Positions 34,848-62,494 of a DNA stretch of 64,000 bases are shown piece after piece. The position numbers were made by a program, and so were the translations under genes. The notes below the pieces were generated by a model. The model worked only from the letters and a program-made list of their open reading frames with translations. It had not been told where the DNA came from and searched no databases. Source of the DNA: Actinophytocola algeriensis (GTDB lineage Bacteria; Actinomycetota; Actinomycetes; Mycobacteriales; Pseudonocardiaceae); assembly GCF_014203735.1 (NCBI RefSeq), contig NZ_JACHJQ010000001.1:434001-498000 (forward strand). The letters run 5' to 3'. How positions within the stretch are numbered: the stretch's first letter is position 1; each line of letters begins with the position of its first letter.

Positions 34848-35027
34848 TGAAGGGCCCCTTCATCACACCGGGCGTTACGAAGGGGTCCTTCATCACGGTG
34901 AGCGCAACGAAGGGGCCCTTCATCACAGCGGACGTTATGAAGGGGTCCTTCGTCGCGCCGGACGTTACGAAGGGGTCCTTCGTCGCATCGAGCGCAACGA
35001 AGGGGTCCTTCGTGGCATCGGGCGCCA
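34848..35027 (+). repeat. 30-bp palindrome array, 6 units
   Basis: Six units of exactly 30 bp start at 34848, 34878, 34908, 34938, 34968 and 34998. Each has a GAAGGGGTCCTTC-type palindrome followed by a 17-base linker such as ATCACACCGGGCGTTAC. Linkers ending GGGCGTT, or the variant GGACGTT, and GAGCGCA roughly alternate. The rest of the gap, to the LacI gene stop at 35085, has no gene. Confidence 0.95.
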
Positions 35028-35084
35028 AGACCGAGTTGTGCTCGGTGACGACACCCTCCGCGTCCGGCGGCTGCCGATCTGACC

Positions 35085-36101
35085 TCAGTCCCGGGGCTCG
35101 GCCAGGGACTCGCGGTGGATGACCTCCGCAGGCACCTCTTCCACGCGAGGTGACGGCTGCGGTGCGTCCAGCGCCATCGTGATCGCCCGCGCGCCGATCT
35201 CCACCAGCGGCAGCCGGACCGTGGTCAGCGGTGGGGTGACATCCCGCGCGATGGGCATGTCGTCGAAGCCCACCACCGACACGTCACCCGGCACCGACAG
35301 GCCCCGCTCCCGCAGGGCCGACAGCGCACCGATCGCCATCGAGTCGTTCAGTGCCACGATCGCCGTCAGGCGAGGGTCCGCGTCCAGCAGGGCGGCGGTG
35401 GCCGCCGCGCCGCCGTCGCGGTCGAACTCGGCGTAGGCGATCCGCTTCGACGGCAGGGTCCGGTGGTGTTCCCTGGCCGCGCGCCGCAGCCCGGCCAGCC
35501 GGTCCGTCGTCGTGGTCAGCTGGCGCGGGGCCGCCACCACACCCACGTGCCGGTGCCCGGCCGAGAAGACCGCCGACCCGATCAGGTAGCCGCCCTCCTC
35601 GTTGGCGGGCATGACCGCGTCGCCGGCGAGCTTGTGGCGGCCCACCACCGACACGCGGCCGCCGGTCGCCATGTACGCCGACAGCTTCGCGTTCAGCGAC
35701 TTCGTGAACGCCGGGTCGTGGTAGCCCGAACCGGCCAGGATGATCGACTCGACCTGGTGGGCACGCAGCAGCTCGACGTACTCCAGCTCACGATCGGGGT
35801 CGCGGTACGAGTTGCAGATGATCACCAGGCGCCCCTGCTCGGACGCCACCCGCTGCAGACCACGCGTGATCTCCGCGAAGTACGGGTCGGACACGTCGTG
35901 CACGATCACGCCGACCGTCGTCCGGTGGGAGCGGGCCAGGAGCTGCGCGTGCGCGTTCGGCACGTACTGCAACTCCTGCACCGCGCGCAACACCCGCTCG
36001 CGCAGCTCCTCGGACACGATCTTGGGGCTGCCGTTCACGATCCGTGACACGGTCGCAGCGGAAACCCCGGCCTTGCGCGCCACATCGGCAAGCGTCGCCA
36101 T
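35085..36101 (-). CDS. LacI-family transcriptional regulator
   Basis: This 338-aa regulator has the helix-turn-helix TLADVARKAGVSAATVSRIV at residues 3-22 and hinge YVPNAHAQLLARSHRTTVGV. A periplasmic-binding-like sugar domain follows (VVGFDDMPIARDVTPPLTTV). ATG 36101 has GGAGG seven bases upstream, better than the extended frame to 36128. GGGAAAGCCCTTTCCC lies 57 bp upstream, and related sites stand before the 37047 gene, so it probably controls itself and the sugar operon that diverges from it. Confidence 0.93.
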   Translation of the reverse strand: MATLADVARKAGVSAATVSRIVNGSPKIVSEELRERVLRAVQELQYVPNAHAQLLARSHRTTVGVIVHDVSDPYFAEITRGLQRVASEQGRLVIICNSYRDPDRELEYVELLRAHQVESIILAGSGYHDPAFTKSLNAKLSAYMATGGRVSVVGRHKLAGDAVMPANEEGGYLIGSAVFSAGHRHVGVVAAPRQLTTTTDRLAGLRRAAREHHRTLPSKRIAYAEFDRDGGAAATAALLDADPRLTAIVALNDSMAIGALSALRERGLSVPGDVSVVGFDDMPIARDVTPPLTTVRLPLVEIGARAITMALDAPQPSPRVEEVPAEVIHRESLAEPRD

Positions 36102-36157
36102 TGCCAGACCTCCGCCGTTGACACCCAATACTCTGCCCGCCTAGCGTCAGGCTACTA

Positions 36158-36173
36158 GGGAAAGCCCTTTCCC
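36158..36173. promoter_or_regulatory. LacI-type operator
   Basis: GGGAAAGCCCTTTCCC is a perfect 7-2-7 dyad. It has the CG-centred AAAGC/CTTT style typical of LacI-family operators and lies between the lacI-type gene and the cupin gene. Confidence 0.7.
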
Positions 36174-36251
36174 CGCGCCTGGAGGCGTGATTACCGCCAG
36201 TGTCCATTGTGCGGCCCCGCAACAGCAAGGCCGCCACGCCGAGGGGTACCG

Positions 36252-36953: not shown

Positions 36954-36958
36954 TCACA

Positions 36959-37015: not shown

Positions 37016-37046
37016 TGGCAAAGTGGCCCTCGGCGGGAGGACTTTC

Positions 37047-40000
37047 GTGCGCAACCGGAGACGCGTCATCACGTTGGTAACGGCCCTGGTGCTCGGCCTG
37101 GTCGCGGCACCGTCCGCGGTGGCCCAAGCCCGCTTCACCGTGCTCGTCTTCTCGAAGGTCAACGGCTACTACCACGACTCCATCCCCGCCGGTCAGCAGG
37201 CGATCACCGAACTGGGCGCCGAAGAGGGCTTCGAGGTCGTCGTGAGCGACGACGCGACCCTGTTCACCGACGCAGGCCTCAGCCGCTTCGACGCGGTCGT
37301 CTTCAACAACACCAACGGCCGCGACGGCGCCATCCTCGACGCGAACCAGCGCGCGGCCTTCGAGCGCTACATCAGGGCGGGCGGCGGCTACGCGGGCATC
37401 CACGCCGCGAGCGGCACCGAGTACGACTGGGCCTGGTACGGCCGCCTCATGGGCGCCTTCTTCGACAAGCACCCCGCCATCCAGCCGCTGAAGGTCCAGG
37501 TCGACGACCGCGCACACCCGTCGACCAGGGAACTGCCGCAGACGTGGGAGCGCACCGAGGAGCCCTACGACTTCCGGAGCAACCCGCGCGGCGGCGTCCA
37601 CGTACTCGCGAGCTACGACACCCGCAGCTACACCGGCCACACCATGGGCGCCGACCACCCCATCTCGTGGTGCCAGAACTTCGAGGGCGGCCGCTCCTGG
37701 TACACCGGCCTCGGGCACGCCGCCGCCGACTACGGCGACCCCGCGTTCCGGTCCCACATCCTCGGCGGCATCGAATGGGCCGCGGGTGCCGTGCCCGGTG
37801 ACTGCGGCGCCACCGAGGACGACCGGTACGTCAAGACCCTCCTCGATGGCGACACCGACGACCCGCTCGCCATGGAGATCGACAACTCGGGCCGCGTCTT
37901 CTACATCCAGCGCGGCGGGCAGCTGAACGTGTACGACCCGAAGAAGGGCTACAGCCACGAGGCGGGCAGGTTCGACGCGTTCGTGCTCCACACGCACGGC
38001 ATGCACGGCCTTGTCCTCGACCCGCACTTCGAGGACAACGGCTACCTCTACGTCTACTACTCGCCACGCACCAAGGGCGTGAACCGCCTGTCCCGCGTCC
38101 GGTTCGACGAGTTCACCAACACCGTCCGCGACGAGAAGGTCCTGCTGGAGTTCTTCTCCCAGCGCGAGATCAACGCCCACGAGGGCGGCGGCATGGCGTT
38201 CGACAGAGAGGGCAACCTGTACCTGTCGACCGGCGACAACGTCGACCCGTGCTGCGAGGGCTTCGCCCCCATCGACGAGCGCGCCGGCCGGAGGAACCAG
38301 GACGCGCAGGGCACCTCGGCCAACACCAACGACCTGCGCGGCAAGATCCTCCGGATCCACCCCGAGGACGACGGTACCTACACGATCCCCGAGGGCAACC
38401 TGTTCCCGCCGGGCACGGACAGGACACGCCCGGAGATCTGGGTGATGGGCCTGCGCAACCCGTACCGCCTGCACATCGATCCGGAGACCGGCTGGGTGTA
38501 CTGGGGCGAGGTCGGCCCGGACGCGCAGAACGACAACGCGCTGCGCGGTCCCATGGGCTACGACGAGTTCAACGTCGCCAAGGAGGCGGGCAACTTCGGC
38601 TGGCCGCTGTGCATCGGCCACAACCGCGCGTACGTCGAGTACGACTTCACGACCGGCCAGTCCGGCCAGCCGTACGACTGCGCGGGCGGCCCGGCCAACA
38701 ACTCGCCCAACAACACCGGCCTGACGAAGCTGCCGCCCGCGCAGCCCGCGTGGCTGCCCTACCCGTACCGCGTGTCCGACGAGTGGCCAGAGCTGGGCAC
38801 CGGCGGGCGGCTCGCGATCGGCGGCCCGACCTACCACTACGACCAGGAGCTCGAGTCGGAGACCAAGTTCCCGGAGTACTACGACGACACCACGATCATC
38901 GCCGACTGGACCCGCAACGCGATGTTCGAGGTGAAGCAGGACGACGGCGACGGCGGCACAGCGGGGAACGCCGTGTCCCTCAACAGGTTCCTGCCGCGCG
39001 GCGGTTTCCTGCGGCCCATCGACATGGAGTTCGGCCCGGACGGTTCGCTGTACGTCATCGAGTGGGGCACCAACTACGGCGGCTCCGGCCGCGGCGACCC
39101 CAACTGGGACTCGGGCATCCACCGCATCGACTACATCCGCCCCGGCGAGCGCGCACCGATCGCGAAGGCGTCGGTGAGCCCGTCGTCCGGGAAGGCCCCG
39201 CTGACGGTCCGGTTCACCGACAAGTCGACCGACCCGGACGGGCACGCGCTCACACACGAGTGGGACTTCGACGGCAACGGCACGGTCGACTCGACCGCCG
39301 CGAACCCGACCCACACGTTCACCGAGAACGGCACGCACCTGGCCCGCCTGATCGTCACCGACCCGACGGGCCGCCGGGAACCGGTGAACGTCAAGGTGAC
39401 CGTCGGCAACACCGCGCCGAAGGTGACGTTCCAGTCCCCGCGCGACGGCGAGGTCTTCGACTGGGGCGTGCCGATTCCCTACCGCCTCAGGGTGACCGAC
39501 GCCGACGGCGGCGTGGACTGCGAGGAGCCGCTCGTCAAGGGCGGTGTCGGGCACGCACGTCAGGTGCACGTGGTGAGCCAGGTCCGGGGCTGCGCCGGGG
39601 AGCTGGTGCCCTCGATCGTCGACGGGCACACCGCGGCCGACGACCTGACCTACGTCCTCGACGCGAGCCACACCGACACGGGACGGCCGAAGCTGACCGA
39701 CCGCGCCACGGTCACGTTGCAGCCGCGCCGCAAGGAAGCCGAGCACTACGACCGGTCGAACGGCATCCGCGTGGTCCGCAACGACGCCGGCGGCGGGCTC
39801 GTCTCCGGGGTCTCCAGCGGTGACTGGCTGTCCGTCACCCCGGTGAACCTGAGGAACGTGGGCAGCCTGACGTTCCGGGTGGCGAGCAGCGCCAACGGTG
39901 GGACCATCGAGGTCCGGTTCGGCGCCCCGGACGGTCCGCTGCTCGGCTCGGTCGCGGTGCCGGTGACCGGTGGCGGCCAGACGTGGACCGAGGTGACCGC

Positions 40001-40220
40001 CCCGGTCGTCGACCCCGGGAGCACGCACGAGTTGTTCCTGGTAGCGAAGAATCCCGGCGCGACCGGGGACCTGTTCAACGTGGACTGGTTCGAGTTCGGC
40101 TCGCGGAGCGGAGCGGCGGAGCGGGCGCCGTCTGGACTGACGAGCACGGAGGCCCGGCGAGGAACGAGTCCTGGGTCTCCGCGCGCAGGAGGGAAGACGG
40201 CGTCTAGCGGAGCTGCGTAG
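37047..40220 (+). CDS. Secreted ThuA / sugar dehydrogenase / PKD / CBM6 fusion protein
   Basis: This 1057-aa exported protein starts at GTG 37047, with GGGAGG at six bases. After a Sec signal (cleavage near AQA, residue ~28) comes a ThuA-like domain, residues ~30-245 (FSKVNGYYHDSIPAG, HAASGTEYDWAWYG). A GSDH/sorbosone-dehydrogenase beta-propeller follows (HTHGMHGLVLDPHF, NDLRGKILRIHPED, VMGLRNPYRLHID), then a PKD domain (about 700-790) and a CBM6-like beta-sandwich (about 890-1020). The gene is probably part of extracellular oxidation of a saccharide. The last ~35 residues come from a dispersed repeat (40103) and are unlikely to be functional. Confidence 0.9.
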   Translation: MRNRRRVITLVTALVLGLVAAPSAVAQARFTVLVFSKVNGYYHDSIPAGQQAITELGAEEGFEVVVSDDATLFTDAGLSRFDAVVFNNTNGRDGAILDANQRAAFERYIRAGGGYAGIHAASGTEYDWAWYGRLMGAFFDKHPAIQPLKVQVDDRAHPSTRELPQTWERTEEPYDFRSNPRGGVHVLASYDTRSYTGHTMGADHPISWCQNFEGGRSWYTGLGHAAADYGDPAFRSHILGGIEWAAGAVPGDCGATEDDRYVKTLLDGDTDDPLAMEIDNSGRVFYIQRGGQLNVYDPKKGYSHEAGRFDAFVLHTHGMHGLVLDPHFEDNGYLYVYYSPRTKGVNRLSRVRFDEFTNTVRDEKVLLEFFSQREINAHEGGGMAFDREGNLYLSTGDNVDPCCEGFAPIDERAGRRNQDAQGTSANTNDLRGKILRIHPEDDGTYTIPEGNLFPPGTDRTRPEIWVMGLRNPYRLHIDPETGWVYWGEVGPDAQNDNALRGPMGYDEFNVAKEAGNFGWPLCIGHNRAYVEYDFTTGQSGQPYDCAGGPANNSPNNTGLTKLPPAQPAWLPYPYRVSDEWPELGTGGRLAIGGPTYHYDQELESETKFPEYYDDTTIIADWTRNAMFEVKQDDGDGGTAGNAVSLNRFLPRGGFLRPIDMEFGPDGSLYVIEWGTNYGGSGRGDPNWDSGIHRIDYIRPGERAPIAKASVSPSSGKAPLTVRFTDKSTDPDGHALTHEWDFDGNGTVDSTAANPTHTFTENGTHLARLIVTDPTGRREPVNVKVTVGNTAPKVTFQSPRDGEVFDWGVPIPYRLRVTDADGGVDCEEPLVKGGVGHARQVHVVSQVRGCAGELVPSIVDGHTAADDLTYVLDASHTDTGRPKLTDRATVTLQPRRKEAEHYDRSNGIRVVRNDAGGGLVSGVSSGDWLSVTPVNLRNVGSLTFRVASSANGGTIEVRFGAPDGPLLGSVAVPVTGGGQTWTEVTAPVVDPGSTHELFLVAKNPGATGDLFNVDWFEFGSRSGAAERAPSGLTSTEARRGTSPGSPRAGGKTASSGAA
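40103..40203 (+). repeat. Dispersed repeat, copy 2, forming the protein tail
   Basis: The GCGGAGCGGAGCGGCGGAGC core, CCGTCTGGACTGACGAGCAC and AGGAGGGAAGACG match copy 1 at 13990 with few changes. A 34-bp insertion, flanked by the inverted sequence GGAGGCCC...GGGTCTCC, separates the last two blocks. Here the repeat is translated as the C-terminus of the upstream protein. Confidence 0.8.
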
Positions 40221-40239
40221 CGACATAGAAGGCAGAGGA

Positions 40240-41112: not shown

Positions 41113-41125
41113 AAGGTCGAACTCG

Positions 41126-42930: not shown

Positions 42931-42948
42931 AAAACGAGGAACATCGAC

Positions 42949-48553: not shown

Positions 48554-48616
48554 CCGGGTGATGCCCTGAAGACGCTTTCGGGGCGTTGGGCCTGGTTGGG
48601 GTGTTCGCCGGTGGCT

Positions 48617-48923
48617 TGTGCCCTCCGGGGGCTCCTCGCCGGAGGGGCAGGTCTCTGGGATGGCCTCTCGGTTTTGCAGTTCTTCTTGCGTTGGGTGCGG
48701 GTCTGCCTGCCATCCCGTCGACCTCCCTACGGGCTATCACACCGGCTCAAGGGGGCGGTTCCAGCGTTTGGCGCCGGTTTGGGTTGTTGGTGCCCCCTTG
48801 AGCCGGTGTGATCGGGCTTCGCCAGGTCGACGGGATGGCAGGGAGCCCCTTTGCGCGGGCTTCCGCCCGTGCTCGGTTGGCCTTCGTGCCCTGAAAGGCA
48901 CTTTCAGGACGTGGCCCGATGGC
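48617..48923 (+). repeat. Lead module interrupted by a 175-bp insertion
   Basis: The lead module runs from 48617 to GGGATGG (48657-48663). It then breaks and resumes with CAGGGAGCCCC at 48839, continuing to the hairpin core CTGAAAGGCACTTTCAGG. The 34710 and 62122 copies are uninterrupted. The 753 bp from 48554 to the ctaD start contain these repeats and no gene that I can support. Confidence 0.85.
48707..48841. repeat. Long imperfect hairpin inserted in the lead module
   Basis: CTGCCATCCCGTCGACCT (48707-48724) pairs perfectly with 48824-48841. TCACACCGGCTCAAGGGGGC (48737-48756) pairs perfectly with 48792-48811. The two stems are separated by a 12-nt internal bulge on each side and closed by a 35-nt loop. 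Total span is 135 bp. Confidence 0.9.
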
Positions 48924-49073
48924 ATGAAGGGCCCCTTCATCACACCGGGCGCAACGAAGGGGTCCTTCATCACGGTGAGCGCAACGAAGGGGTCCTTCAT
49001 CACACCGGGCGTGACGAAGGGGCCCTTAATCGCACCGGGCGCAACGAAGGGGTCCTTCATCCCACCGGGCGCT
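48924..49073 (+). repeat. 30-bp palindrome array, 5 units
   Basis: Units begin at 48924, 48954, 48984, 49014 and 49044. The fourth has a T-to-A change within the palindrome (GGGCCCTTAATC). The array is in the same orientation as those at 34848 and 62260. It is followed by about 230 bp with no gene before ctaD. Confidence 0.93.
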
Positions 49074-49306
49074 ACCGGCGGCCGACCCGCCGTGCGCCTC
49101 CGGGGACGTGCACGGCGCACCGGGAAAGGTGGTGACCGTCACCGCGGCTTGCGTACTGATCGACATGGCGGGATGGTGTCAGCGCGAACGCCGCCCACGC
49201 TCGGCATTTACCCACGCCAGCCCAACCGCGCCGGGCAGATACGCGCGGGCTACGATCGCCCGTGAATCACGGTAAGGCGTGGTTGCAGACTCGCAGGAGG
49301 CATGGA

Positions 49307-51094: not shown

Positions 51095-53091
<1,997 letters not shown>

Positions 53092-53109
53092 CGAACGAAC
53101 CGCCCGTCG

Positions 53110-53205
53110 TCAGTGGACGCCGCCGAGGTGGCCGCCGTCGACGCGGATGGTGGCGCCGCTGACGCAGTCGGCGAGTGGGCAGGCAAGGCAGGCCACCGCG
53201 GCCTG
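53110..53205 (-). pseudogene. C-terminal remnant of a short-chain dehydrogenase
   Basis: The minus strand encodes the typical SDR ending CLACPLADCVSGATIRVDGG followed by HLGGVH and a stop at 53110. Only about 31 residues match; upstream of them there is no SDR sequence, and the region runs into the plus-strand gene at 53240. The cysteines where Ala, Ser or Tyr are usual (CLACPLADC) suggest decay. Confidence 0.75.
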
Positions 53206-53239
53206 CCCTGAAGCTGTTGTATGCCGCCATAATTCAGAG

Positions 53240-54391
53240 GTGCGTGTCGACATCGCCCAGATCACCCCGTCCACGCCCCCGACGGCCATCGCCCACCACT
53301 CCGACGACGTTCTGGTGTCGGTGGTGCTCGACCGGCGGCAGGAGTGGTGGCGGCGCAGGATCTGCGCACTAGCCCTGTCCGGCCGGGTCCCGGCGGGGTA
53401 CGTGCCCGCCCTGCTCGACGTCGTGCGTGACAGTCGGGTCACCACCGAGATCCGGGTCGCGCTGCTGGAGATCCTCCCGCTGTCGGACGAGTTGCTGACC
53501 TGGTTGCGCACCGCCGCCGACGACGCGCTCGCCCTCGCCATCATCCGCACGCGGGCTCGCTTCGGCGACACCACCGTGGTCCCGGACCTGGTGCGGCTGA
53601 TGGAAAGCGAGTGGCATCACCGCCGCATGGTCGCCGAGCAGGGCATCGACATGCTGGGAGAGCGGGCGGTGCTCGACGCGCTGGGTTTCGACTCGGCCCT
53701 GTCCCTCATGCTGTTCGGCGACACCCCCGCCACCCGGGTGCTCGGCGTGCGCTGGGCCGACCCCGACATCACGCAGGCCCTCGCCGACGAGGAGCGGATG
53801 GTGGCCCGCGAGGCCTACGACCGGCTGGCGGACGTGTCCGACAACCACGGTGAACTGTTCCGCATGGTCGTCGACCGCGCGCCAGGTCACCTCTGGGCGC
53901 TGGCGGTCCTCGCGGCGCGCGGCGAACCGATCGACGACCAGTGGGCGGCTCTCGGCAGGCCGAGGGTGGACGTGCCAGGCCTGCCGGCGGACGTACGCGC
54001 GGCGATCGTCCGCCAGTACGTCCCCGGCACCCGCGAGACCGATCCGCGGTGGATGTTGGAAGCGGCGTGCCTCCCGGCCCCGGAGCCGGAGGACGTGCTG
54101 ACGGAGGCACTGGCCGCGCTGGCCCCCTTCACACCGGCGACTCCCGTGACGGCGGGCGACCACCACCAGCAGGGCGAGGGCACCTACCACGTGGTCGACA
54201 CCGCCGCGGGCCGTGTCATGGTGAGCACGCTGGGCCGGTTCTACTGGGCCGACAACATCCCGGACCTGCCGGGTTTCCGCCGCATCGACGACACCCTGGG
54301 CGCGATCGTGGTCACCGGGCTGCCCGTGTACTTCTTCGGTCACCGCGAGCCGCTGACCGTCCACGACCTGGTGTTCTACTGGCAGGACTGA
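53240..54391 (+). CDS. HEAT-like alpha-helical protein of unknown function
   Basis: This 383-aa protein is built of repeated paired helices (RRQEWWRRRICALALSGR, VPDLVRLMESEWHHRRMVAE, WADPDITQALADEERMVARE), like HEAT/Armadillo folds. A C-terminal beta-rich domain follows (DTAAGRVMVSTLGRFYWAD). Although the frame opens at 53147, that part is antisense to the SDR remnant, so GTG 53240 is chosen. It has no ribosome site but lies about seven bases after a CATAAT -10-like box, so it may be leaderless. No family assigned. Confidence 0.7.
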   Translation: MRVDIAQITPSTPPTAIAHHSDDVLVSVVLDRRQEWWRRRICALALSGRVPAGYVPALLDVVRDSRVTTEIRVALLEILPLSDELLTWLRTAADDALALAIIRTRARFGDTTVVPDLVRLMESEWHHRRMVAEQGIDMLGERAVLDALGFDSALSLMLFGDTPATRVLGVRWADPDITQALADEERMVAREAYDRLADVSDNHGELFRMVVDRAPGHLWALAVLAARGEPIDDQWAALGRPRVDVPGLPADVRAAIVRQYVPGTRETDPRWMLEAACLPAPEPEDVLTEALAALAPFTPATPVTAGDHHQQGEGTYHVVDTAAGRVMVSTLGRFYWADNIPDLPGFRRIDDTLGAIVVTGLPVYFFGHREPLTVHDLVFYWQD

Positions 54392-54408
54392 CCTGTTCGC
54401 AGCAGGCC

Positions 54409-54849
54409 CTACCGCACGGCTTGCTTCACCAGATCCGCGATGCGGGCCTCGACCTCGGGCGTGATCTCGGTCAGGGCGAAGCTCGTCGCCCACATCTCGC
54501 CGTCGTCCAGTTTCGCTTCCTCCTCGAAGCCGAACGTGGCGTAGCGGGTCTTGAACTTCGCCGCGGGCTGGAAGAAGCAGACGTTCTTGCCGTCCAGCTG
54601 GTACGCGGGCATGCCGTACCAGAGCTTCGGCGCCAGCACCGGGGCCGTGGTCGTGACGATCTCGTGGACGCGTTCGGCCATGGCACGGTCGGCGCCGGTC
54701 ATCTCGGCGATCTTCGCGAGCAGGTCCCGCTCCGCCGCGGCCGCCTTGTCCGCCTTCGAGCCGCGGCGCGACTCCTTCTTCATCTGCTGGGCGTGCTCTT
54801 TCATCGCGGCCCGCTCTTCGGCCGAGAAGCCCTCGTACGTGTTGGTCAT
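54409..54849 (-). CDS. DUF1801 family protein
   Basis: This 146-aa small cytoplasmic protein of the YdhG/DUF1801 fold has the central segment LWYGMPAYQLDGKNVCFFQP, its most conserved part. GGAAAGG stands eight bases before ATG 54849. It is the second gene of a pair with the VOC protein 33 bp upstream. The two often occur together in actinobacteria; their joint role is not known to me. Confidence 0.82.
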   Translation of the reverse strand: MTNTYEGFSAEERAAMKEHAQQMKKESRRGSKADKAAAAERDLLAKIAEMTGADRAMAERVHEIVTTTAPVLAPKLWYGMPAYQLDGKNVCFFQPAAKFKTRYATFGFEEEAKLDDGEMWATSFALTEITPEVEARIADLVKQAVR

Positions 54850-54881
54850 GGCGATCACCTTTCCGGGGTGGTTGAGGCACA

Positions 54882-55508
54882 TCAGGATTCCGCCGAGACC
54901 GAGCTGGTCTCCCAGGCGAAGCCGTCGGGGTCGGTGAGCTGCTCGGGTGCGCCGCCGAGCGCGATGCGGTGCGATCCGCTGCCGTCGGGGGCGACACCGG
55001 CGTCCTTGGCGAGCGCGCGGCGCCGGTACAGCCCCAGCTTGACCGCACCCGGCGCACTGTCGAACTCGATGTACATGTTGCGGAAGCTCTTCGCCACGGT
55101 GAGGCCGTGGTCGAGGTAGAACTGCTTGCTCGCGGCCACGTCGGCGGCGCCCAGCAGCAGCACGATGTCGTCGTATCTCGGCGCGGCCGGGCCAGTGTTC
55201 TTCTTGTTCGGGGTCGCGACCTTCCAGATCGTCCCGTCGGGGGCCTGGAACACGCCGCCGTAGCCCCAGAAGGACTTCTTGGCCGGCTTGAGCACGGTCG
55301 CCCCGGCGTCGACGGCGGCCTCGAACAGGGCGTCACCGTCGGCGGGCTGCGCCACGATGAGCGACAGGCTGAAGCCGCGGAAGCCGTCGGTCGGTTCCTG
55401 CGAGGCCCGCACGCGCACCCGGTGGTCGGACCCGAGGACGGCGGCGTAGAAGGTTTCTGCGGCCGCGATGTCGGCCACTTCGAGGGTGATGGTGTCGATC
55501 GATGTCAT
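54882..55508 (-). CDS. Two-domain VOC (glyoxalase-fold) family protein
   Basis: This 208-aa protein has two vicinal-oxygen-chelate modules, residues ~5-100 (ITLEVADIAAAETFYAAVLG) and ~112-200 (VLLLGAADVAASKQFYLDHG). Standard metal ligands are incomplete (the C-terminal Glu is present in some positions, while several His are missing), so a binding role is as likely as catalysis. The start is ATG 55508. Confidence 0.87.
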   Translation of the reverse strand: MTSIDTITLEVADIAAAETFYAAVLGSDHRVRVRASQEPTDGFRGFSLSLIVAQPADGDALFEAAVDAGATVLKPAKKSFWGYGGVFQAPDGTIWKVATPNKKNTGPAAPRYDDIVLLLGAADVAASKQFYLDHGLTVAKSFRNMYIEFDSAPGAVKLGLYRRRALAKDAGVAPDGSGSHRIALGGAPEQLTDPDGFAWETSSVSAES

Positions 55509-55566
55509 GCCCAGAACGCTATGGCGGTGCGGTGACCTGCGCTTCTCGATTCCTGACCGGTATTCC

Positions 55567-56004
55567 TCAGCAGGTGTCGGGCCCGTTGACGCGGATCGCG
55601 ACCAGCGAGTCGAGCAGGCGCGTGGGCAGCCGGTTGATCAGGTAGTGCGGCGGCAGCCGTTCCAGCCACGCGAGGAAGTGCCCGGACACGGCGTAGAGGT
55701 GCAACGTGAAGTGCCGGACGTCGGTCTTCTCGCCGAGCACCACGTCCTCGGCGACCCAGCCCGCGTCGTCGAAGCGCAGCTCCGCCGCGAAGTACATGGT
55801 GGTCGCGTCGGGCGGCTGGACGAACAGGGCCGCGTGCCCCTCAGCGGGACGCGGGCCGGTACCGACGTAGTCGGCACAGTGCGGGACGGTGCTGACGGGG
55901 TCGAAGGAGACCTGGGTGGAGCGGGCCACCGGGGTGGGGTGGCCGGGGACCGAGCAGGCGGCCAGCAGCACGACCGCGAGCAGGAGAGTTCTGGTCAGGA
56001 CCAC
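55567..56004 (-). CDS. Putative lipoprotein
   Basis: This 145-aa protein has a lipobox-containing signal (TLLLAVVLLAACSVPG, Cys about residue 17) and a compact beta-rich domain including a second Cys near PHCADYVG and a terminal Cys. The GTG start at 56004 overlaps the DUF397 gene end. No known family. Confidence 0.72.
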   Translation of the reverse strand: MVLTRTLLLAVVLLAACSVPGHPTPVARSTQVSFDPVSTVPHCADYVGTGPRPAEGHAALFVQPPDATTMYFAAELRFDDAGWVAEDVVLGEKTDVRHFTLHLYAVSGHFLAWLERLPPHYLINRLPTRLLDSLVAIRVNGPDTC

Positions 56005-56165
56005 TCAAGCAGGGCACGCCACGCGGCGGCGGGGACGACGAGCGTGGGCCCGTCGGTGTTTTTGGAGTCCCGCACGGCGGTCGCCTCATCGAGGAGCGCG
56101 ACCTCGACGCAGCTGTCGTTGCCGCCGCCTTCGCCGCCGCTGAAGCTGCTCTTACGCCACTTCAC
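55995..56165 (-). CDS. DUF397 protein
   Basis: This 56-aa protein has the family hallmarks WRKSSFSGGEGG and CVEVALLD, then AVRDSKN and the closing WRALLEWS. DUF397 proteins are encoded beside XRE/DUF5753 regulators throughout actinomycetes (for example BldB-like/AbaA systems) and are thought to partner with them. GTG 56165 starts it; the regulator gene ends 15 bp upstream. Confidence 0.9.
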   Translation of the reverse strand: MKWRKSSFSGGEGGGNDSCVEVALLDEATAVRDSKNTDGPTLVVPAAAWRALLEWS

Positions 56166-56180
56166 AGTGTTCGCCTCTTC

Positions 56181-57026
56181 TCAGCTCGACCACAGTTCGT
56201 CGGCAACCCGATCGATCAGCGCGACCGACTCGTCGGGGTCCAACGCCATCGCCCGGAGGCGGGCAAACCGTAGTCTAGCTGGCTCGACGAACTCGGATTT
56301 GTCCTGACGTTCGTCGCCGAGGGCATGCATCGCATGGCACATACTGGGATGGCCGGGCTGTGGGAAGTCGAGGACGTTGAAACCGCCATAGGCCGCTTCG
56401 GACGAGAAGGCCGACGCGGGAAGCACGCGCAGGGTCACCGTCGGCAGTTCGTTGATCAGCGCGAGGTGGCCGAGTTGGGCTCGCATGACGGCCGGGCGGC
56501 CCACGGGGTTGCGCAGGGCGAACTCGTGCACGACCGCTTCCAGGACGAGCGGGTGTTCCTCGTCGGTGAGCCGTTCCTGGCGCGTCAGGCGGACTTCGAG
56601 CTGGTTGGCGATCCAGTCCTCGGTCCGCTGCCTGCTGCCCGAGGTGAAGACGGCCCGGGCGTATTCGGCTGTCTGCAGGAGGCCCGGCACCAGGGTGACT
56701 TCGTAGACGCTGATCCGGGTCGCGGCGGTCTCGAGCGCGATGAAGTCCTTGTCCGAGATGCCGTACTGCTTCCACCAGCCCGGGGCTCTGGCCTGGCGGA
56801 TCATGTCGAGGACGTCGTCCATGCGCTGGTCGTAGACGTCCATCATCGACTTGAGCAGGTGGACGTTCACCCTGCCGATGCCGTTCTCGAAGCGGCTCAG
56901 CGCGCTCCTCGTGATCTCCAGGCGCGCCGCCGCCTCGACGACTGTCAGCCCGGTGTGCTGCCTGGCCAGGCGGATGCGCCGGCCGACCTCCTGGCGCAGC
57001 ACGACCGGGCTGATGTGTGTGGCCAC
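56181..57026 (-). CDS. XRE-family regulator with DUF5753
   Basis: This 281-aa regulator has a helix-turn-helix near the N-terminus (RRIRLARQHTGLTVVEAAAR, then EITRSALSRFENG). A DUF5753 domain follows (VPGLLQTAEYARAVF, LPTVTLRVLPASAF, FNVLDFPQPGHPSM). It forms the usual pair with the DUF397 gene downstream. GTG 57026 is chosen from family length; in-frame starts exist a little further upstream. Confidence 0.9.
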   Translation of the reverse strand: MATHISPVVLRQEVGRRIRLARQHTGLTVVEAAARLEITRSALSRFENGIGRVNVHLLKSMMDVYDQRMDDVLDMIRQARAPGWWKQYGISDKDFIALETAATRISVYEVTLVPGLLQTAEYARAVFTSGSRQRTEDWIANQLEVRLTRQERLTDEEHPLVLEAVVHEFALRNPVGRPAVMRAQLGHLALINELPTVTLRVLPASAFSSEAAYGGFNVLDFPQPGHPSMCHAMHALGDERQDKSEFVEPARLRFARLRAMALDPDESVALIDRVADELWSS

Positions 57027-57079
57027 AAGACCAGGGTCCACGCGCACGCCCGCGCGTGGGATCTCACCACCCGATCGAG

Positions 57080-57403
57080 CTACTTCTTCCGTTGCCACAC
57101 GACGAAAAGGCCGTCCTCGACCGTCGTCATGGCTTCGATGAAGGCGTCGTTGTCGAAGTCCGGCAGTGATTGCAGACGGCTCATCAGGTCGTCGGCCGAC
57201 GGGTGGCCCGCCGGGACGGCGCATCCGCCGCCGCCTTCGGCGACCAGCAGGAAGAACACGTCTTCCTTCCACGGGCCTTCCGGGGTGGTCCTGATCGCGA
57301 CCTCCGACAGCTTCGCCCAGGTCACCGACTCCTCGGTGCCGTCGGCGAGTTGCCGGCGGACGCCATCCTCGTCGACCGTGATGCCGGTGTCAGCAGTGGA
57401 CAC
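57080..57403 (-). CDS. Small hypothetical protein
   Basis: This 107-aa acidic protein starts VSTADTGITVDEDGVRRQL, with a probable small alpha/beta fold (VTWAKLSEVAIRTTPEG, VFFLLVAEGGGGCAVPAG). AAGGAG lies five to six bases before GTG 57403. The much longer frame to 58486 is shadow of the helicase gene. It follows the helicase by 14 bp and may be co-transcribed. Confidence 0.75.
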   Translation of the reverse strand: MSTADTGITVDEDGVRRQLADGTEESVTWAKLSEVAIRTTPEGPWKEDVFFLLVAEGGGGCAVPAGHPSADDLMSRLQSLPDFDNDAFIEAMTTVEDGLFVVWQRKK

Positions 57404-57417
57404 GCATTCTCCTTTGA

Positions 57418-59451
57418 TCAGTCCGCCGAGGTGTCGAGGCGGCCGAGCGCCGCCCTGACCACTTCGGGGTCGCTCGTCGTCCAGTAGCTCGGCAGCGACG
57501 AGCGGAGGAAACCGCCATAGCGCGCGGTAGCCAGGCGTGGGTCGAGGATCGCGATCACGCCGCGGTCGTCGGTGCTGCGCAGCAGGCGGCCGGTGCCCTG
57601 CGCGAGCAGCAGCGCGGCGTGGGTGGCCGCGACCGACAGAAAACCGTTGCCGCCACGGGCTTCCACGGCCCGCTGCCGTGCCGAGGCCAGCGGGTCGTCC
57701 GGCCGGGGGAACGGGATGCGGTCGACGATCACGAGTTGCAGCGACGGGCCGGGCACGTCGACGCCCTGCCACAGCGACAGCGTGCCGAACAGGCAGGTGG
57801 CCTCGTCCTCGGCGAACTTGCGCACCAGCAGCGCCGTCGAGTCCTCGCCCTGGCACAGGATCTCCAGGCTCGTCCGCTTCCGCAGCTCCTCCGTGGCCTG
57901 CTTGGCCGCGCGCATCGACGAGAACAGGCCCAGGGTGCGGCCGCCCGCCGACTCCATCAGTTCCTTGATCTCGTCCAGGTACGCGGGCGGCAGCCCGTCG
58001 CGGCCCGGCGGCGGCAGGTGCTTCGCCAGGTACAGGATGCCCTTGCGGGCGTGGTCGAACGGCGACCCGACGTCCAGCGACGTCCACTTGGGACCCTCGA
58101 TGGACTTCTCCGTCGCCGCACCCGGCAGCTGCTCGCTCGGGCCGTTCTCGGGCGGCAGGCCCCACGACCGCGCCATGGAGTCGAAGTTGCCGCCCAGCGT
58201 CAGGGTCGCGGACGTGAGCACGGTCGTGGTCTGGCCGAACAGCCGCTCCCGCAACAACCCGGACACGGCCAGCGGCGCCACCTTGATGGTCGGCGGCCGA
58301 GGCGGGCCCATGCCGCTGTCGCCGGTGCGCCACACGACGTCGCGGCGCTGTGACACGTCGCCGTCCCACGCGTCGAGCAGCCGCACCGCGGTGTCGTGCA
58401 CTTCCTCCAGTTGCGACAGTGCGAGCTTGCGCGCCGTCTGCACGTCGACGTCGCCGGACTTCTCCGAGCCCAGCCCGGTGATGCACGCGTGCGCGGCGTC
58501 GCGCAGCGCGGTCAGCGTGCCGGACAGCGGCTTCGGCATCTCGTCCAGCCGCCCGACCGGCAGGTCGTCCATGATGAGCGCGAGCCCGTCACCGGCCTCC
58601 AGCAGCCGGTCGGCGATCTCCTGGTCGACGATCCGCGCCGCGCGGCGGGCCGCCGCGGTGACGACACCGGAGGTCAGCTCCGCGGTGGCGACGGAGGTGA
58701 CGCGGTCGACGAGGTCGTGCGCCTCGTCCACGATCACCAGGTCGTGCTCGGGCAACACCTGGTAGCCCTGCAGCGCGTCGATGGCCAGCAGCGCGTGGTT
58801 GGTGACGATCAGGTCCGCGCGCCCGGCCTCCTCGCGGGCCTTCTCGGCGAAGCAGTCCGCGCCCATGGGGCAGCGGGACTTGCCGAGGCATTCCCGCGCC
58901 GACACCGCCACCTGCCGCCAGGCCTGTTCGGACACGCCGGGCACCAGCTCGTCGCGGTCGCCGGTCTCGGTGTCCGACACCCACTCCCGCAGCCGCGTGA
59001 CCTCCCGGCCGATCCGCGACACCGCGAACGGGTCGAACAGGACGGCGTCGTCGGGCTCGTCCTCCATGCCGCTGTCGAGCTTGTTGAGGCACAGGTAGTT
59101 GCGGCGGCCCTTGAGGATCGCGAACGTCGGCTTGCGGCCCAGCTCCTTGGCCAGCGCCTTCTCCAGGCGGGGCAGGTCGCGGTCGATGAGCTGGCGCTGC
59201 AGCGCGATGGTCGCGGTCGAGACCACGACCGTCCCCTCGGTCGCCACCGCGTGCCGCAGGGCCGGGACCAGGTACGCCAGCGACTTGCCCGTGCCGGTGC
59301 CCGCCTGCACGGCGAGGTGGTCGCCGGTGCGGATCGAACGACCGACGGCCTCAGCCATGGCAACCTGACCAGGGCGTTCGCTGCCGCCGACCGCGCCGAC
59401 CGCGGTCGCGAGCAGCTCGTTCACTCCAGGTAGGTGGGTGGTAGACGGCAC
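57418..59451 (-). CDS. DinG/XPD-family ATP-dependent DNA helicase
   Basis: This 677-aa superfamily 2 helicase has Walker A AGTGTGKSLAY near residue 54 and DEAH motif IVDEAHDLVD. The cysteines characteristic of a 4Fe-4S cluster occur in the intervening region (CLNKLDSG, CLGKSRCPMGADCF). Late motifs are LWQGVDVPGPSLQ and QGTGRLLRS. Such enzymes unwind damaged or structured DNA. The start is GTG 59451; the frame continues to 59796, but that portion overlaps the divergent gene and lacks homology. Confidence 0.93.
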   Translation of the reverse strand: MPSTTHLPGVNELLATAVGAVGGSERPGQVAMAEAVGRSIRTGDHLAVQAGTGTGKSLAYLVPALRHAVATEGTVVVSTATIALQRQLIDRDLPRLEKALAKELGRKPTFAILKGRRNYLCLNKLDSGMEDEPDDAVLFDPFAVSRIGREVTRLREWVSDTETGDRDELVPGVSEQAWRQVAVSARECLGKSRCPMGADCFAEKAREEAGRADLIVTNHALLAIDALQGYQVLPEHDLVIVDEAHDLVDRVTSVATAELTSGVVTAAARRAARIVDQEIADRLLEAGDGLALIMDDLPVGRLDEMPKPLSGTLTALRDAAHACITGLGSEKSGDVDVQTARKLALSQLEEVHDTAVRLLDAWDGDVSQRRDVVWRTGDSGMGPPRPPTIKVAPLAVSGLLRERLFGQTTTVLTSATLTLGGNFDSMARSWGLPPENGPSEQLPGAATEKSIEGPKWTSLDVGSPFDHARKGILYLAKHLPPPGRDGLPPAYLDEIKELMESAGGRTLGLFSSMRAAKQATEELRKRTSLEILCQGEDSTALLVRKFAEDEATCLFGTLSLWQGVDVPGPSLQLVIVDRIPFPRPDDPLASARQRAVEARGGNGFLSVAATHAALLLAQGTGRLLRSTDDRGVIAILDPRLATARYGGFLRSSLPSYWTTSDPEVVRAALGRLDTSAD

Positions 59452-59578
59452 AGGCAGACGGTACCTCCGACCCCCGACAGTCCCGTGCAGCCACCCGGTT
59501 ACCACGACCGGGTTGTCTGTGTGCACTGGCGAGTGGCTGCTCTGGCCCGCGGAGTCGGTGGCGGGTCTCCTCTGTGCC

Positions 59579-60217
59579 ATGAGACTTCGCAGCACACTCA
59601 CCGCGGCGTTCCTGACCGTCGCGGGACTCGGAATCGTGGTGGCACCGGCCCAGGCGTCCCCCGGCGACGCGGTCGCGGAGGCGTCGGCGGGCGCGCTCAC
59701 CATCGGTGCGACCACCGTCGAACCGATCGCCGCGTGCAGCACAGAGGGTGAACCCTCCGGCCAGTCGGGTGAGGTCGTCGTGCCGAACGTGGCCACCTAC
59801 TCCTCCGGCGAGTCGACCTGCACCATCGACGAGGCGGGCGAGATCGCGAAGACGACCGTGACCGGCGGCCGGTTCCGCTTCGACGCGCTGCGGCAGTACG
59901 GCGGCCCCAGGATCCGGCTGACCAGCTACACCGCGAAGTGCGAGACGACGCTGGCCGGCAGCAGCTCGTCGGTCCAGTTCTCCGGCCTGACCGGCGTGAC
60001 GGTGCCGTCGCCGCTGCCGTCGAACTACGTCGTGACCATCCCGGGCGGCCCGGACGGCAAGCCGATGGCGACGGTGACGTTCAACGAGGCGCTGTTCCCG
60101 TCGCCCGCCGACGGCAGCATGACCGTGCACCTCATGCACATCCGCATGTTCCCGCGGGGCGGGCCGGCATCCGGGGACGCGTACGTCGGCACAGTGCGCT
60201 GCGCGCCCGTGTCCTGA
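59579..60217 (+). CDS. Secreted choice-of-anchor P-type protein
   Basis: This 212-aa exported protein has a Sec signal (RLRSTLTAAFLTVAGLGIVV, cleavage about AQA at residue 27). The beta-rich domain has the family pattern VRCAPVS at the end and NEALFPSPADGSMTVHLMHI. Such proteins are common in Streptomyces and relatives and have no known role. ATG 59579 is chosen by the signal peptide. Confidence 0.8.
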   Translation: MRLRSTLTAAFLTVAGLGIVVAPAQASPGDAVAEASAGALTIGATTVEPIAACSTEGEPSGQSGEVVVPNVATYSSGESTCTIDEAGEIAKTTVTGGRFRFDALRQYGGPRIRLTSYTAKCETTLAGSSSSVQFSGLTGVTVPSPLPSNYVVTIPGGPDGKPMATVTFNEALFPSPADGSMTVHLMHIRMFPRGGPASGDAYVGTVRCAPVS

Positions 60218-60239
60218 GGTTCGTGGCGGCGCCGGTGAC

Positions 60240-60563
60240 CTACCGGCGCCGCTTGATCTTGATGAGGTTCATGTCGGTGGCGGACGCCTTCAGGTCCCGG
60301 AAGTCCACCCCGAGGTCCGCCACCGCCCGCGCGGCGAGCGTCTTCCCCCGGTCGCACACGGCCTTCTCCTCCTTGTCGTTCAGCTCGACGCGGAACGAGA
60401 AGAAGTCGAGCGCATGGTCGTAGGCCAGCGACCCGGTCCCGCTGAACCCGGCGGTGAGCACGTCGTGCTCCCCGGCCGCCGCGCGTAGTCGCGTCCGGCC
60501 GTCGTCGTCCAGGTCGGTGAACCGGCCGCGTACCAGCACGCGGTAGGTGTGCTCCTCGGTCAT
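60240..60563 (-). CDS. DUF6204-like hypothetical protein
   Basis: This 107-aa protein starts MTEEHTYRVLVRGRFTDLDD and has an alpha/beta pattern followed by a basic tail (IKIKRRR). It is similar to the actinobacterial DUF6204 group as I remember it. Its start overlaps the methyltransferase gene end by four bases, so the two are coupled. Confidence 0.7.
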   Translation of the reverse strand: MTEEHTYRVLVRGRFTDLDDDGRTRLRAAAGEHDVLTAGFSGTGSLAYDHALDFFSFRVELNDKEEKAVCDRGKTLAARAVADLGVDFRDLKASATDMNLIKIKRRR

Positions 60564-61282
60564 GCGCTCTCCTTGCGGACGATGAAGACGTACTCGGTGC
60601 TGTCCGGGGTGAACGGTTCGCGCGCGAACCCGCCGTACAGCGCTTCCAGTGGCAGGCCCGCGACGTCGATCAGGCCGAGCCATTCGTTCTTGGTCGCCCA
60701 CCAGAGGGTGCTGGTGGTCCCGTCGTCCCGGACGATGTCGATCCGGTTCTCGCCGACGGAGTACCGCATGGTGTGCGGCGCGGGTTCGGTCTGGCGGACC
60801 CCGTCGAGCCGCACGGCGACGTGGTGGTCGAACGCGAAGGCGTTCCACGCGAACCGTCCGCCGGGTTTGAGTGCGGCGGCCACGTTCTCGAAGACCCGGC
60901 GCCGGTCGGCCCACGTCGGTACGTGCAGCAGCGCGCGGAACGGGCAGTAGATCAGAGCCGCGGGTTCGTCGAGGGTGAAGTCACGCATGTCGGCGTGGCG
61001 CAGGTCGAGCAGCGGGTCGTTCGCCTTGGCGAGCATCGCGGGCGACGAGTCGATCCCGATCACCTTCCGCTCGATCGCCCGCGCGACGGGTGTCGCGACC
61101 CGTCCCGTCCCGACGGCCAGCTCGACGACGGGTCCGTCGGCCTCGCGGGCGAGGTCCACGTAGAAGGGGATGTCCTCGGTCAGGTGCGCGGCCCACTCGT
61201 CGTACCGGTCCGCGAGTGCTTCGTCCCAGCTCACCCGGGCAGGCTCCCACCCGTGGGCCGGTGGCGGCCACTCAATTGCCAC
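60560..61282 (-). CDS. Class I SAM-dependent methyltransferase
   Basis: This is a ~240-aa enzyme with motif I VVELAVGTGRVATPVA, motif II GIDSSPAMLAKA and post-I HADMRDFTLDEPAA. Its substrate is unknown. The ORF can start at GTG 61282 (overlapping the upstream gene end by 11 bp, no clear ribosome site) or at GTG 61235 (VSWDEALADRYDEW). I list the longer one. Confidence 0.85.
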   Translation of the reverse strand: MAIEWPPPAHGWEPARVSWDEALADRYDEWAAHLTEDIPFYVDLAREADGPVVELAVGTGRVATPVARAIERKVIGIDSSPAMLAKANDPLLDLRHADMRDFTLDEPAALIYCPFRALLHVPTWADRRRVFENVAAALKPGGRFAWNAFAFDHHVAVRLDGVRQTEPAPHTMRYSVGENRIDIVRDDGTTSTLWWATKNEWLGLIDVAGLPLEALYGGFAREPFTPDSTEYVFIVRKESA

Positions 61283-61772
61283 GCCAGGGGATCGTGTCGG
61301 CGAGGGTGGGATCGGTGAACGCGAGCACCGACTCGTCCAAGCGGCAGAAGTACAGGTTGTCGCCCCAGTCCTCGTACGCCTCGCCCGCGAGGAGCAGGAG
61401 CGGCCGCGCTCCGATCCGGAGGGAGACCTCGGCCAGGACGCCGCGCTCGCGGCGCACGGTCACGTCGTCGATCCGGCCGGTCGGCAGCTCGGGCAGGTGC
61501 CGCTCGCGGAAGATCCCGTCCGAACCCCCGGGACCGAGCGGTTGGGTCCACAGGCCCCACGCGTCGTCGTCCTGGTAGGTGACGACCGAGAGCACCTCGC
61601 CGTCCAGTGTCGCGTGGAGGCTGGACAACTGGAGGAACGGCGCGCGGGGGTCGTCGAACCGGGGCGGGTCCTCGAAGAACGCCATCTCCACGCCGGTCCA
61701 CGCGCGCACGGTCCGGCCGCGCAGAGCGGTGAACTCCCGCTCGCGCTCGCTCAGCCACTCCTCGCCCACCAC
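61272..61772 (-). CDS. Conserved hypothetical protein
   Basis: This is a ~165-aa soluble protein with no recognised domain, starting VVGEEWLSEREREFTALRG. It has a mixed alpha/beta pattern (GEVLSVVTYQDDDAWGLW, VSLRIGARPLLLLAGEAYED). GTG 61772 or 61769 is used; the upstream extension to 61943 is antisense shadow or pseudogene. It is first in a leftward run with the methyltransferase and DUF6204 genes. Confidence 0.7.
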   Translation of the reverse strand: MVGEEWLSEREREFTALRGRTVRAWTGVEMAFFEDPPRFDDPRAPFLQLSSLHATLDGEVLSVVTYQDDDAWGLWTQPLGPGGSDGIFRERHLPELPTGRIDDVTVRRERGVLAEVSLRIGARPLLLLAGEAYEDWGDNLYFCRLDESVLAFTDPTLADTIPWRGN

Positions 61773-62113
61773 GGCGCGAGTATCGCGGCGTACCGGGGCG
61801 TCCGGCGAACGGTTTGCACCACGACCGCCACGAGCGTGCCCAGGGCTGCCAGTGCCATGTCCTTGTGCGGGTCCCACAGGTCGCCCTGCTGACCGTTGTA
61901 CGACTCGGCCATGCCCGGTGCCATCACCGCGGCCACGCCCCACTCGAACAGTGCGCCGGTCCAGTCGTCGTACGCACCGACGAGTACAGCCAGCGCGCCG
62001 CGATCGTGTGCAGCGTCAGGAAGACCAGCGCACACACCCACACCCGCGGCGGCAGCCCCACGCGGCGGTGCACCACCGTCAGCGACGTGTGCAACGCCTG
62101 CTCGACCGGCCAC
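61751..62113 (-). pseudogene. Decayed YjdF/DUF2238 membrane-protein gene
   Basis: Minus-strand sequence encodes the typical DUF2238 segments LHTIAARWLYS, YDDWTGALFEWG and AESYNGQQGDLWDPHKDMAL. The first is in a different frame from the rest: around 61974 GTGCGTACG replaces the expected GTGCCGTACG, a one-base loss. The middle of the family (between DDW and LFEWG) appears deleted, and the N-terminus is replaced by the repeat at 62122. The 3' end slightly overlaps the next gene's start. Confidence 0.7.
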
Positions 62114-62121
62114 GGCCCGGT

Positions 62122-62259
62122 GGGGTGTGCCCTCCGGGAGCTCCTCGCCGGAGGGGCAGGTCTCTGGGATGGCAGGGAGCCCCTCGGTGGCGGGCTTCGG
62201 CCCTGTGCTCGGTTGGCCTTCGTGCCGTGAAAGGCGCTTTCAGGACGTGGCCCGATGTC
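62122..62259 (+). repeat. Repeat lead module and hairpin before the 62260 array
   Basis: The sequence is the same over most of its length as 34710-34847. It contains GTGCCGTGAAAGGCGCTTT and then CAGGACGTGGCCCGATGTC, as in the 48617 copy. It interrupts the N-terminal end of the YjdF-like pseudogene. Confidence 0.88.
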
Positions 62260-62469
62260 ATGAAGGGGCCCTTCGTCACACCGGGCGTTACGAAGGGCCC
62301 CTTCATCACGTCGAGCACAACGAAGGGGCCCTTCATCACACCGGGCGTTACGAAGGGGTCCTTCATCACAGTGAGCGCAACGAAGGGGTCCTTCATCGCG
62401 CCGGGCGTTACGAAGGGGTCCTTCATCACGCCGAGCACAACGAAGGGGGCTTTCGTGGCATCGCTGCTG
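62260..62469 (+). repeat. 30-bp palindrome array, 7 units
   Basis: Units start every 30 bp from 62260 to 62440. Linkers mostly alternate between ACACCGGGCGTTAC types and types ending GAGCACAAC or GAGCGCAAC. The last unit is worn (GAAGGGGGCTTTC). The array ends 26 bp before the pncA stop at 62495. Confidence 0.95.
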
Positions 62470-62494
62470 TCTCGACAGCGTCTTTCAGGGCAGG

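Follow-up and report, generated by a model that had tools for sequence, protein, structure and literature searches.

Intergenic 30-bp palindromic arrays in Actinophytocola algeriensis and the dispersed mosaic that carries them

Repetitive extragenic palindromic (REP) repeats and the bacterial interspersed mosaic elements (BIMEs) built from them are best known from Proteobacteria. Two further classes of bacterial repeat invite comparison with the subject of this report, namely the mycobacterial interspersed repetitive units and variable-number tandem repeats (MIRU/VNTR), which are actinobacterial tandem repeats that lie between genes and vary in unit number, and miniature inverted-repeat transposable elements (MITEs), which are dispersed copies free of open reading frames (ORFs). 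The repeat described here shares these respective traits with both, and consists of 30-bp palindromic units that form four intergenic arrays within a 64,000-nt stretch of the Actinophytocola algeriensis genome (contig NZ_JACHJQ010000001.1, positions 434,001 to 498,000, or C1:434001-498000; hereafter the window). As set out in the relevant sections of the source articles, REP elements are short extragenic palindromes present in more than 100 copies (PMC3733652, PMC2817692) that lie between convergent or unidirectional genes near stop codons and are characterised by their copy number, palindromes and mosaics (PMC3733652), and the spread of REPs and BIMEs has been attributed to REP-associated tyrosine transposases (RAYTs; PMC2817692). 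In its main text, PMC3733652 does not use the word Actinobacteria. Hairpin clusters have been reported as terminators for which poly-U is unnecessary (PMC8355165). No description of the motif or the topic was found in the open-access literature that was searched, the one match to a motif being a paper on trypanosomes.

Our preferred reading, to which we would assign a probability of roughly 0.55, is of a dispersed mosaic of the REP/BIME type, free of ORFs and not driven by a RAYT, in which the arrays form the part that can expand and would act as a cluster of hairpins where the flanking mRNAs end. It builds on the direct observation of dispersal, a near-constant order of modules, high likeness between copies, location, foldability and absence at several orthologous sites.

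The arrays and the mosaic around them

The original prediction, made from the sequence of the window, had described four arrays of 4, 6, 5 and 7 units with a 30-bp period, and both Tandem Repeats Finder (TRF) and a direct scan found them within 1-2 bases of the predicted starts:

22346-22448, minus strand (weakly, by linkers): array of 4 units, bare, with 0 mosaic modules found (TRF and direct scan)
34849-35011, plus strand: array of 6 units between convergent genes, with stops at 34703 and 35085
48926-49058, plus strand: array of 5 units between two plus-strand genes
62262-62454, plus strand: array of 7 units, the last degenerate, between two minus-strand genes

Each unit is a 13-bp palindrome, GAAGG-NNN-CCTTC, followed by a 17-base linker. 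The window's genome (G000; 9.73 Mb, 98% complete) was sampled as 764 kb in three contiguous blocks, the window included, and 100 kb picked around further arrays; arrays in this sample have 2-9 units, and the step from unit to unit was exactly 30 in 114 of 123 cases, in a scan that tolerated 28-32 and accepted units with at most two stem mismatches. TRF also reported a 60-bp period in two of the window arrays, and two linker types tend, by eye, to alternate. Because the linkers of the window arrays recur as a few types, the arrays are not CRISPR-like, as had been argued from the outset, and CRISPR was rejected on the repeated linkers, cas genes not having been searched. A single direction for all four arrays is doubtful: three lie on the plus strand, and the linkers of the array at 22346 slightly favour the minus strand, with 11 mismatches to the main linker types there against 15 on the plus strand. 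Gene calls did place the array at 62262 between two minus-strand genes, in agreement with what had been proposed for one array.

The idea of a dispersed and amplified element, which had been staked on the existence of many further copies in the genome, fared well. The unit pattern, allowing at most two mismatches, matched G000 376 times, with both strands used (203 and 173), against 2 matches (1+1) for the reversed control, and the pattern for an adjacent pair of units gave 224 matches against 0 in the control. The stem GAAGG/CCTTC is mostly preserved and the central triplet variable, in a scan that itself favours preserved stems. Compensatory variation that keeps the palindromes intact had also been claimed, from variants that differ only in the central triplet, and was not seen: among 151 stems of G000, 133 were intact, 17 broken on one side and 1 compensated, and compensatory evolution within this genome was rejected.

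The arrays had been taken for the element itself, a description that holds for a dispersed repeat and is incomplete, since the array forms just one of the modules of a larger mosaic in which three of the four window arrays are embedded. When five modules were searched by BLAST around 28 sampled arrays, their order was H1, optional INS, MID, LEND, array and REND; at least one further module was present at 22 of the 28, and 21 of these 22 fit the order, C1:753242 being different. The module consensus sequences were derived from the G000 copies themselves, and the flanks of many arrays are conserved between loci. The head of the mosaic derives from R1, an element of approximately 220 nt with a long stem that is widespread in the family (Pseudonocardiaceae). 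The window mosaics span 34712-35011, 48617-49058 and 62124-62492, and contain, besides the arrays:

34712-34813, plus strand: head (H1 hairpin, a short form of R1) and MID, 98% and 95% by blastn; R1 model match at 34723-34825, 29.5 bits
34804-34854, plus strand: LEND, a GAAAG..CTTTC hairpin bordering the array, 86.8% to consensus
48627-48849, plus strand: full-length R1, the ~220-nt long-stem module, from an alignment with predicted pairs; 178 bits with an R1 model built partly from this copy
48832-48931, plus strand: MID and LEND, 95.0% and 94.3%
62124-62226, plus strand: head (H1, short R1 form) and MID, 98.0% and 95.1%; R1 model match at 62136-62210, 31.2 bits
62215-62268, plus strand: LEND, 100% to consensus
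62452-62492, plus strand: REND tail, 97.6%, two bases before the stop codon of the minus-strand gene 62495-63055

By eye, LEND and REND resemble inverted repeats, which would therefore place the array in the loop of an outer GAAAG-type hairpin. The full copy at 62124-62492 has a predicted folding energy of -202.3 kcal/mol (z -6.7) on the plus strand and -200.3 kcal/mol (z -10.9) on the minus strand. Over their aligned part, seven copies of H1 match the consensus at 100%, and the full INS copies match theirs at 95.6-98.1% (six) and 89.4-90.8% (two). Since the module copies are so alike, when proteins encoded in the window are mostly 75-95% identical to their orthologs in the relative G002, the spread looks recent.

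Position relative to genes, orthologous sites and related hairpins

Gene calling relied on a self-trained script based on codon usage (coding fraction 0.80-0.93 in G000 and G125, 0.82-0.89 in relatives), and sampling beyond G000 covered 200 kb from G002 and 400 kb from G125. A preference for intergenic 3' regions had been anticipated, and in the three genomes none of the 45 intergenic arrays or hairpins lies between divergent genes. In G000, the 27 intergenic arrays of at least two units comprise 17 in convergent, 10 in tandem and 0 in divergent gaps (another, which lay at the end of a contig and overlapped with a called gene, was excluded). Counted by gap, arrays occur in 17 of the 97 convergent gaps, in 10 of the 355 tandem gaps and in 0 of the 114 divergent ones. 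Divergent gaps make up 23% of the intergenic bases (p ~0.001 for 0 arrays) and convergent gaps 28% (p ~1e-4 for the excess, part of the DNA having been picked for arrays); in the unbiased contiguous part (n=20) the counts were 11 convergent, 9 tandem and 0 divergent, with p ~0.005 for the convergent and ~0.004 for the divergent class. The median distance from array to stop codon is 36 bp in G000, and 7 of its 10 tandem-context arrays, a small sample, are closer to the upstream stop than to the downstream start. G002 has 6 convergent, 2 tandem and 0 divergent cases, with two more inside called genes, and G125 has 5, 5 and 0, with one more inside a called gene. A strong bias of the arrays to gene 3' ends is thus supported.

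Syntenic stretches of four relatives (G002-G005) were compared at the array sites, of which 62262 was not comparable. At site 22346, the gaps in G002 (55 bp) and G003 (54 bp) contain no GAAGG units, other short inverted repeats being possible there. At site 34849, the convergent stops of G004 are 15 bp apart and leave no space for an array, G002 has a pair of units spaced by 30 bp whose spelling differs (GAAGGACGCCTTC), and G003 has a 2.6-kb gap with no units. The orthologous gaps of site 48926 in G003 (183 bp) and G004 (241 bp) hold no unit, and G002, where the neighbour gene is different, has no units either. From these unit-free gaps it follows that the array family was gained, or replaced, in the G000 lineage, and since some of these gene pairs have no array in relatives, the array position is not required. 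As a separate observation, the convergent gap of G005 orthologous to 34703-35085 holds an unrelated tandem repeat with GTTGGACTC/GAGTCCAAC motifs (L107, ~9400-9620).

The unit belongs to a 43-nt hairpin type, the pair pattern of which was present in 84 of 297 family genomes (control 0) and, outside the family, in 4 of 393 genomes of a class-wide sample, one of these (G570) being apparently, judged by shared sequence, the same coding match as in G079, G042 and G262. Among many of the matches listed, the pair pattern is a single 43-nt inverted repeat. An alignment (A1) was made of 50 43-mers hand-picked among the matches listed, with no G000 sequence, near-duplicates removed and one apparent coding match kept; 20 of its columns were fixed by the search pattern and nine pairs were tested. 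Its free positions pair in 85.3% of cells, compared to 51.6% when shuffled and 32-37% when slid, and 151 cells had changed on both sides where 50.8 were expected from shuffles, which suggests, for this hand-picked set, that the 43-nt hairpins covary strongly in other genomes. Copy number is uneven even within one genus, ranging from 0 to 464 in g16. In another genus (g43), G264 has 135 GAAGG hairpin pairs and the 18 other g43 genomes listed have none, an excess that is either a lineage-specific burst or an oddity of assembly or taxonomy (900 contigs).

Known systems and competing explanations

The repeat works like a BIME, yet it is not a RAYT-type BIME. Its likenesses to REP/BIME repeats are the number of short palindromic copies (376 as against 2 in the control, well over 100), the intergenic placement of 27 of 27 counted G000 arrays, and a mosaic of modules in regular order (modules at 22 of the 28 arrays, 21 of which follow one order). 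Among the differences, the G000 units run mostly head-to-tail whereas BIME REPs alternate, the head comes from a structured element of ~220 nt, and the repeat is nearly confined to one family in the samples searched. From MIRU/VNTR, as described above, the arrays are set apart by their palindromic unit and by belonging to a mosaic with separate arms. LEND and REND resemble, by eye, the inverted outer arms of a MITE, but the mosaic shows no target duplication by eye and no cognate transposase was identified. The convergent and unidirectional sites close to stop codons again recall REPs, as PMC3733652 describes them in its main text. The hairpin-cluster terminators treated in the pertinent part of PMC8355165 likewise have several consecutive hairpins close to stop codons and no poly-U, but the G000 arrays are copies of one repeat family with up to 9 units, their role in termination is putative, and most gene ends, as well as several orthologous ones, lack them. 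With their GC-rich genome and lack of U-tracts, they also offer a setting in which the ability of hairpin clusters to terminate transcription can be tested.

Under our preferred reading, a full copy would consist of an R1-derived head, a mid piece, a GAAAG-type arm, the run of 30-bp palindromes and a matching outer arm. The number of units would change by slippage or by unequal recombination between the 30-bp repeats, and copies would spread by an activity other than a RAYT. Clustered hairpins where the flanking mRNAs end, probably the likeliest role, may halt transcription or slow it from whichever side it comes, or hinder 3' decay, and the position behind genes would be tolerated, possibly useful, and not required. 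Function is given moderate weight only, because pure tolerance together with purging from promoters explains the location equally well.

Several results weigh against this account. A U-tract was found at none of the array ends examined (0 at 56/56), which also distinguishes the arrays from canonical intrinsic terminators, and a simple terminator scan of 48500-62600 gave 2 sites against 4.6 in shuffles. Target-site duplications were rejected, none having been seen by eye at the edges of 15 mosaic copies, and so was a strand-specific RNA role of the array, as the RNA strand of greater stability is that of the nearest upstream gene in just 15 of 25 arrays. Neighbouring triplets are reverse-complementary in 15 of 123 G000 pairs compared to 29.6 when shuffled, i.e., below chance, and in 6 of 22 compared to 4.7 in G002, with no excess over chance; only in G125 are they above chance (10 of 16 versus 3.9). 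Together with the stem counts, the G000 triplets thus point to arrays that are mainly head-to-tail duplications. The gene calls behind the position counts are those of the self-trained script, the binomial p-values for position overstate independence because the arrays are copies of each other, the 3' bias could arise from selection against promoter insertion alone, and 80 of the 97 convergent gaps have no array.

The rival accounts overlap with the preferred one and do not exclude it. The strongest of them, though on balance unlikely, is a selfish or neutral repeat, in which the mosaic spreads and the array slips without any function, and copies in promoters or genes are removed by selection. 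Such purifying removal fits the complete lack of divergent cases (0 of 45) and the mere three arrays that overlap called genes beyond the one at the contig end, and it agrees with the orthologous gene pairs that do without arrays, the range of copy number within g16 and the lack of compensatory changes in G000. The tendency of tandem-context arrays towards the upstream stop (7 of 10, a small sample) argues the other way, and so does the strong covariation in the hand-picked hairpins of other genomes, which is unexpected under neutrality, although template switching could yield it.

A somewhat less probable account, and one we regard as doubtful, has the array as a selected bidirectional terminator or insulator between convergent genes, a hairpin cluster working without a U-tract. 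Convergent enrichment (p ~1e-4 over all the G000 DNA, partly picked for arrays, and ~0.005 in the unbiased part) and the covariation of the 43-nt hairpins speak for it, as does termination by hairpin clusters without poly-U in the corresponding part of PMC8355165; it has to contend with the empty convergent gaps, the missing U-tracts and the stops of G004 at site 34849, whose 15-bp spacing leaves no room for an array.

Gyrase and integration host factor (IHF) bind BIMEs, a precedent for a further account in which the array offers a series of sites to a DNA-binding protein (of the nucleoid, gyrase or a regulator), each site being the 13-bp palindrome. A mostly kept stem around a varying triplet would suit an operator with two half-sites, albeit in a scan that favours kept stems, but there is no association with promoters. 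Elsewhere the triplet and linker change with pairing kept, which favours structure over sequence. We regard this account as improbable.

The idea of a classical REPIN/BIME moved by a RAYT transposase can be dismissed as very improbable, since, for all that copy number, palindromes, mosaic order and 3' location are as the main text of PMC3733652 gives them for REPs, the Y1_Tnp family (PF01797) of RAYTs was found in 0 of 6 genomes of the genus, 0 of 12 in g16 and 2 of 29 overall, and among 302 unit ends in G000 GTAG occurs 0 times, CGTC 28 times and CATC 109 times. RAYT mobilisation was rejected on the absence of the family from the window's genome, 98% complete as it is. Both positive genomes belong to g41, where one is hairpin-rich and the other has no hairpins. 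Given a high-copy mosaic in a genome in which no RAYT family was found, another route of spread should exist.

R1 across the family and other features of the window

BLAST finds homologs of the left arm of the window mosaic (48617-48930) in 96 of 200 family genomes. An R1 alignment (A2) of 19 sequences was assembled from the window copy and 18 of 20 fetched homologs, which were the best BLAST matches (left out were L122, whose 5' end is poor, and L125, which nearly duplicates L126), and it has 47 predicted pairs, 17 of them with double changes and many others invariant. The covariance model built from it matched 99 of 150 family genomes in 36 of 46 genera at E <=0.001; at most 19 of these 99 genomes supplied sequences to the model, and two of them (G012 and G149), at E >1e-4, are no better than the weak matches outside the family. 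Those were found in 6 of 196 genomes of the class-wide sample, all at or below 28.4 bits. Copy number reaches at least 15 in ten of the genomes listed, and all such counts are lower bounds, with 3 candidates scored per genome by BLAST, 15 in the family model scan and 11 in the class-wide model scan. As a conserved structure that has no Rfam match and whose model is found in most of the family genomes scanned, R1 is a target for RNA and DNA work.

No match in the window reached an Rfam gathering score, the full window copy of R1 having a best E of 0.1, far below gathering, and at 19 of the 20 R1 homolog loci (all but L126) Rfam gave three tRNAs only; a known RNA family was accordingly rejected for the head. 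A plasmid or phage origin was rejected on one homolog (G019), which was without a match in plasmid and phage collections, and so was a constant neighbour gene, 20 neighbouring ORFs having yielded DUF218 twice, GntR-UTRA twice and, for the rest, families seen once or no family at all. Across 20 loci in G017 and G118, R1 stands in mixed contexts that include five divergent gaps, and for this reason the R1 head alone is not a 3'-end element.

The 5' segment of R1 is a near copy of its 3' arm, and both can pair with the same middle strand. The alternative pairing holds in 91.7% of cells, compared to 88.3% shuffled, with 8 double changes against 1.9, a small effect that gene conversion between the 5' segment and the 3' arm could mimic. 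Judged by sequence, the short heads in G000 look like deletions between these direct repeats of R1.

Upstream flanks in G017, which belongs to another genus, are common to many of its 15 R1 copies, and at the two loci checked there R1 lies downstream of tandem arrays of 55-56-bp units. These arrays lie directly upstream of R1 at L160 5241-5794 and L162 5481-5752, and a similar string occurs in the R1 loop of L162. Eight loci of G017 were matched with G072, the stretches of which were chosen near expected R1 sites: five are collinear, two have R1 inverted between collinear flanks and one is without a matching R1. The pairs with opposite orientation and collinear flanks are L169 6346-6584 with L188 7845-8087, and L171 6552-6864 with L201 11839-12147. 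A tentative joint reading, in our judgement rather less probable than its negation, is that R1 belongs to a class of structured interspersed elements not described before and found largely in this family. It may switch between two folds as the 5' segment and 3' arm compete for the middle strand, could be inverted at the same site from one related species to another, and would recruit tandem arrays that differ between lineages, i.e., 30-bp palindromes downstream in G000 and 55-56-bp units upstream in the other genus. If so, the 30-bp arrays would be one instance of a general mobile architecture of R1 plus array.

Three related features of the window stand apart from the arrays:

5427-5469, no strand assigned: single 43-nt hairpin with array-type architecture, central triplets GCA/TGC, between convergent genes
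11249-11375, plus strand: R1 remnant (H1 and GAAAG hairpin) without an array, R1 model 31.7 bits; solitary BLAST module match at 11255
29951-29994, plus strand: solitary H1, 88.6% to the H1 consensus

Other repeats were also noted. In G125 (C1:90001-490000; L071-L090) another intergenic repeat family, with 11-mers within GAAAGCCACTTTCGCAACCTTC and CATCCAGAGGACGAAACG, occurs in 10-15 of 248 gaps. A dispersed repeat of ~100 bp at 40103-40220 in the window encodes the last ~36 residues of the large protein at 37023-40220, and parts of it recur at 14004-14055, in L031 at 12180-12292, and every 140 bp in G002 (L099). Finally, the cytochrome oxidase subunit encoded at 49307-51094 has a small top group of PDB matches, e.g., 6adq and 7q21, which we take to be mycobacterial and corynebacterial chains.

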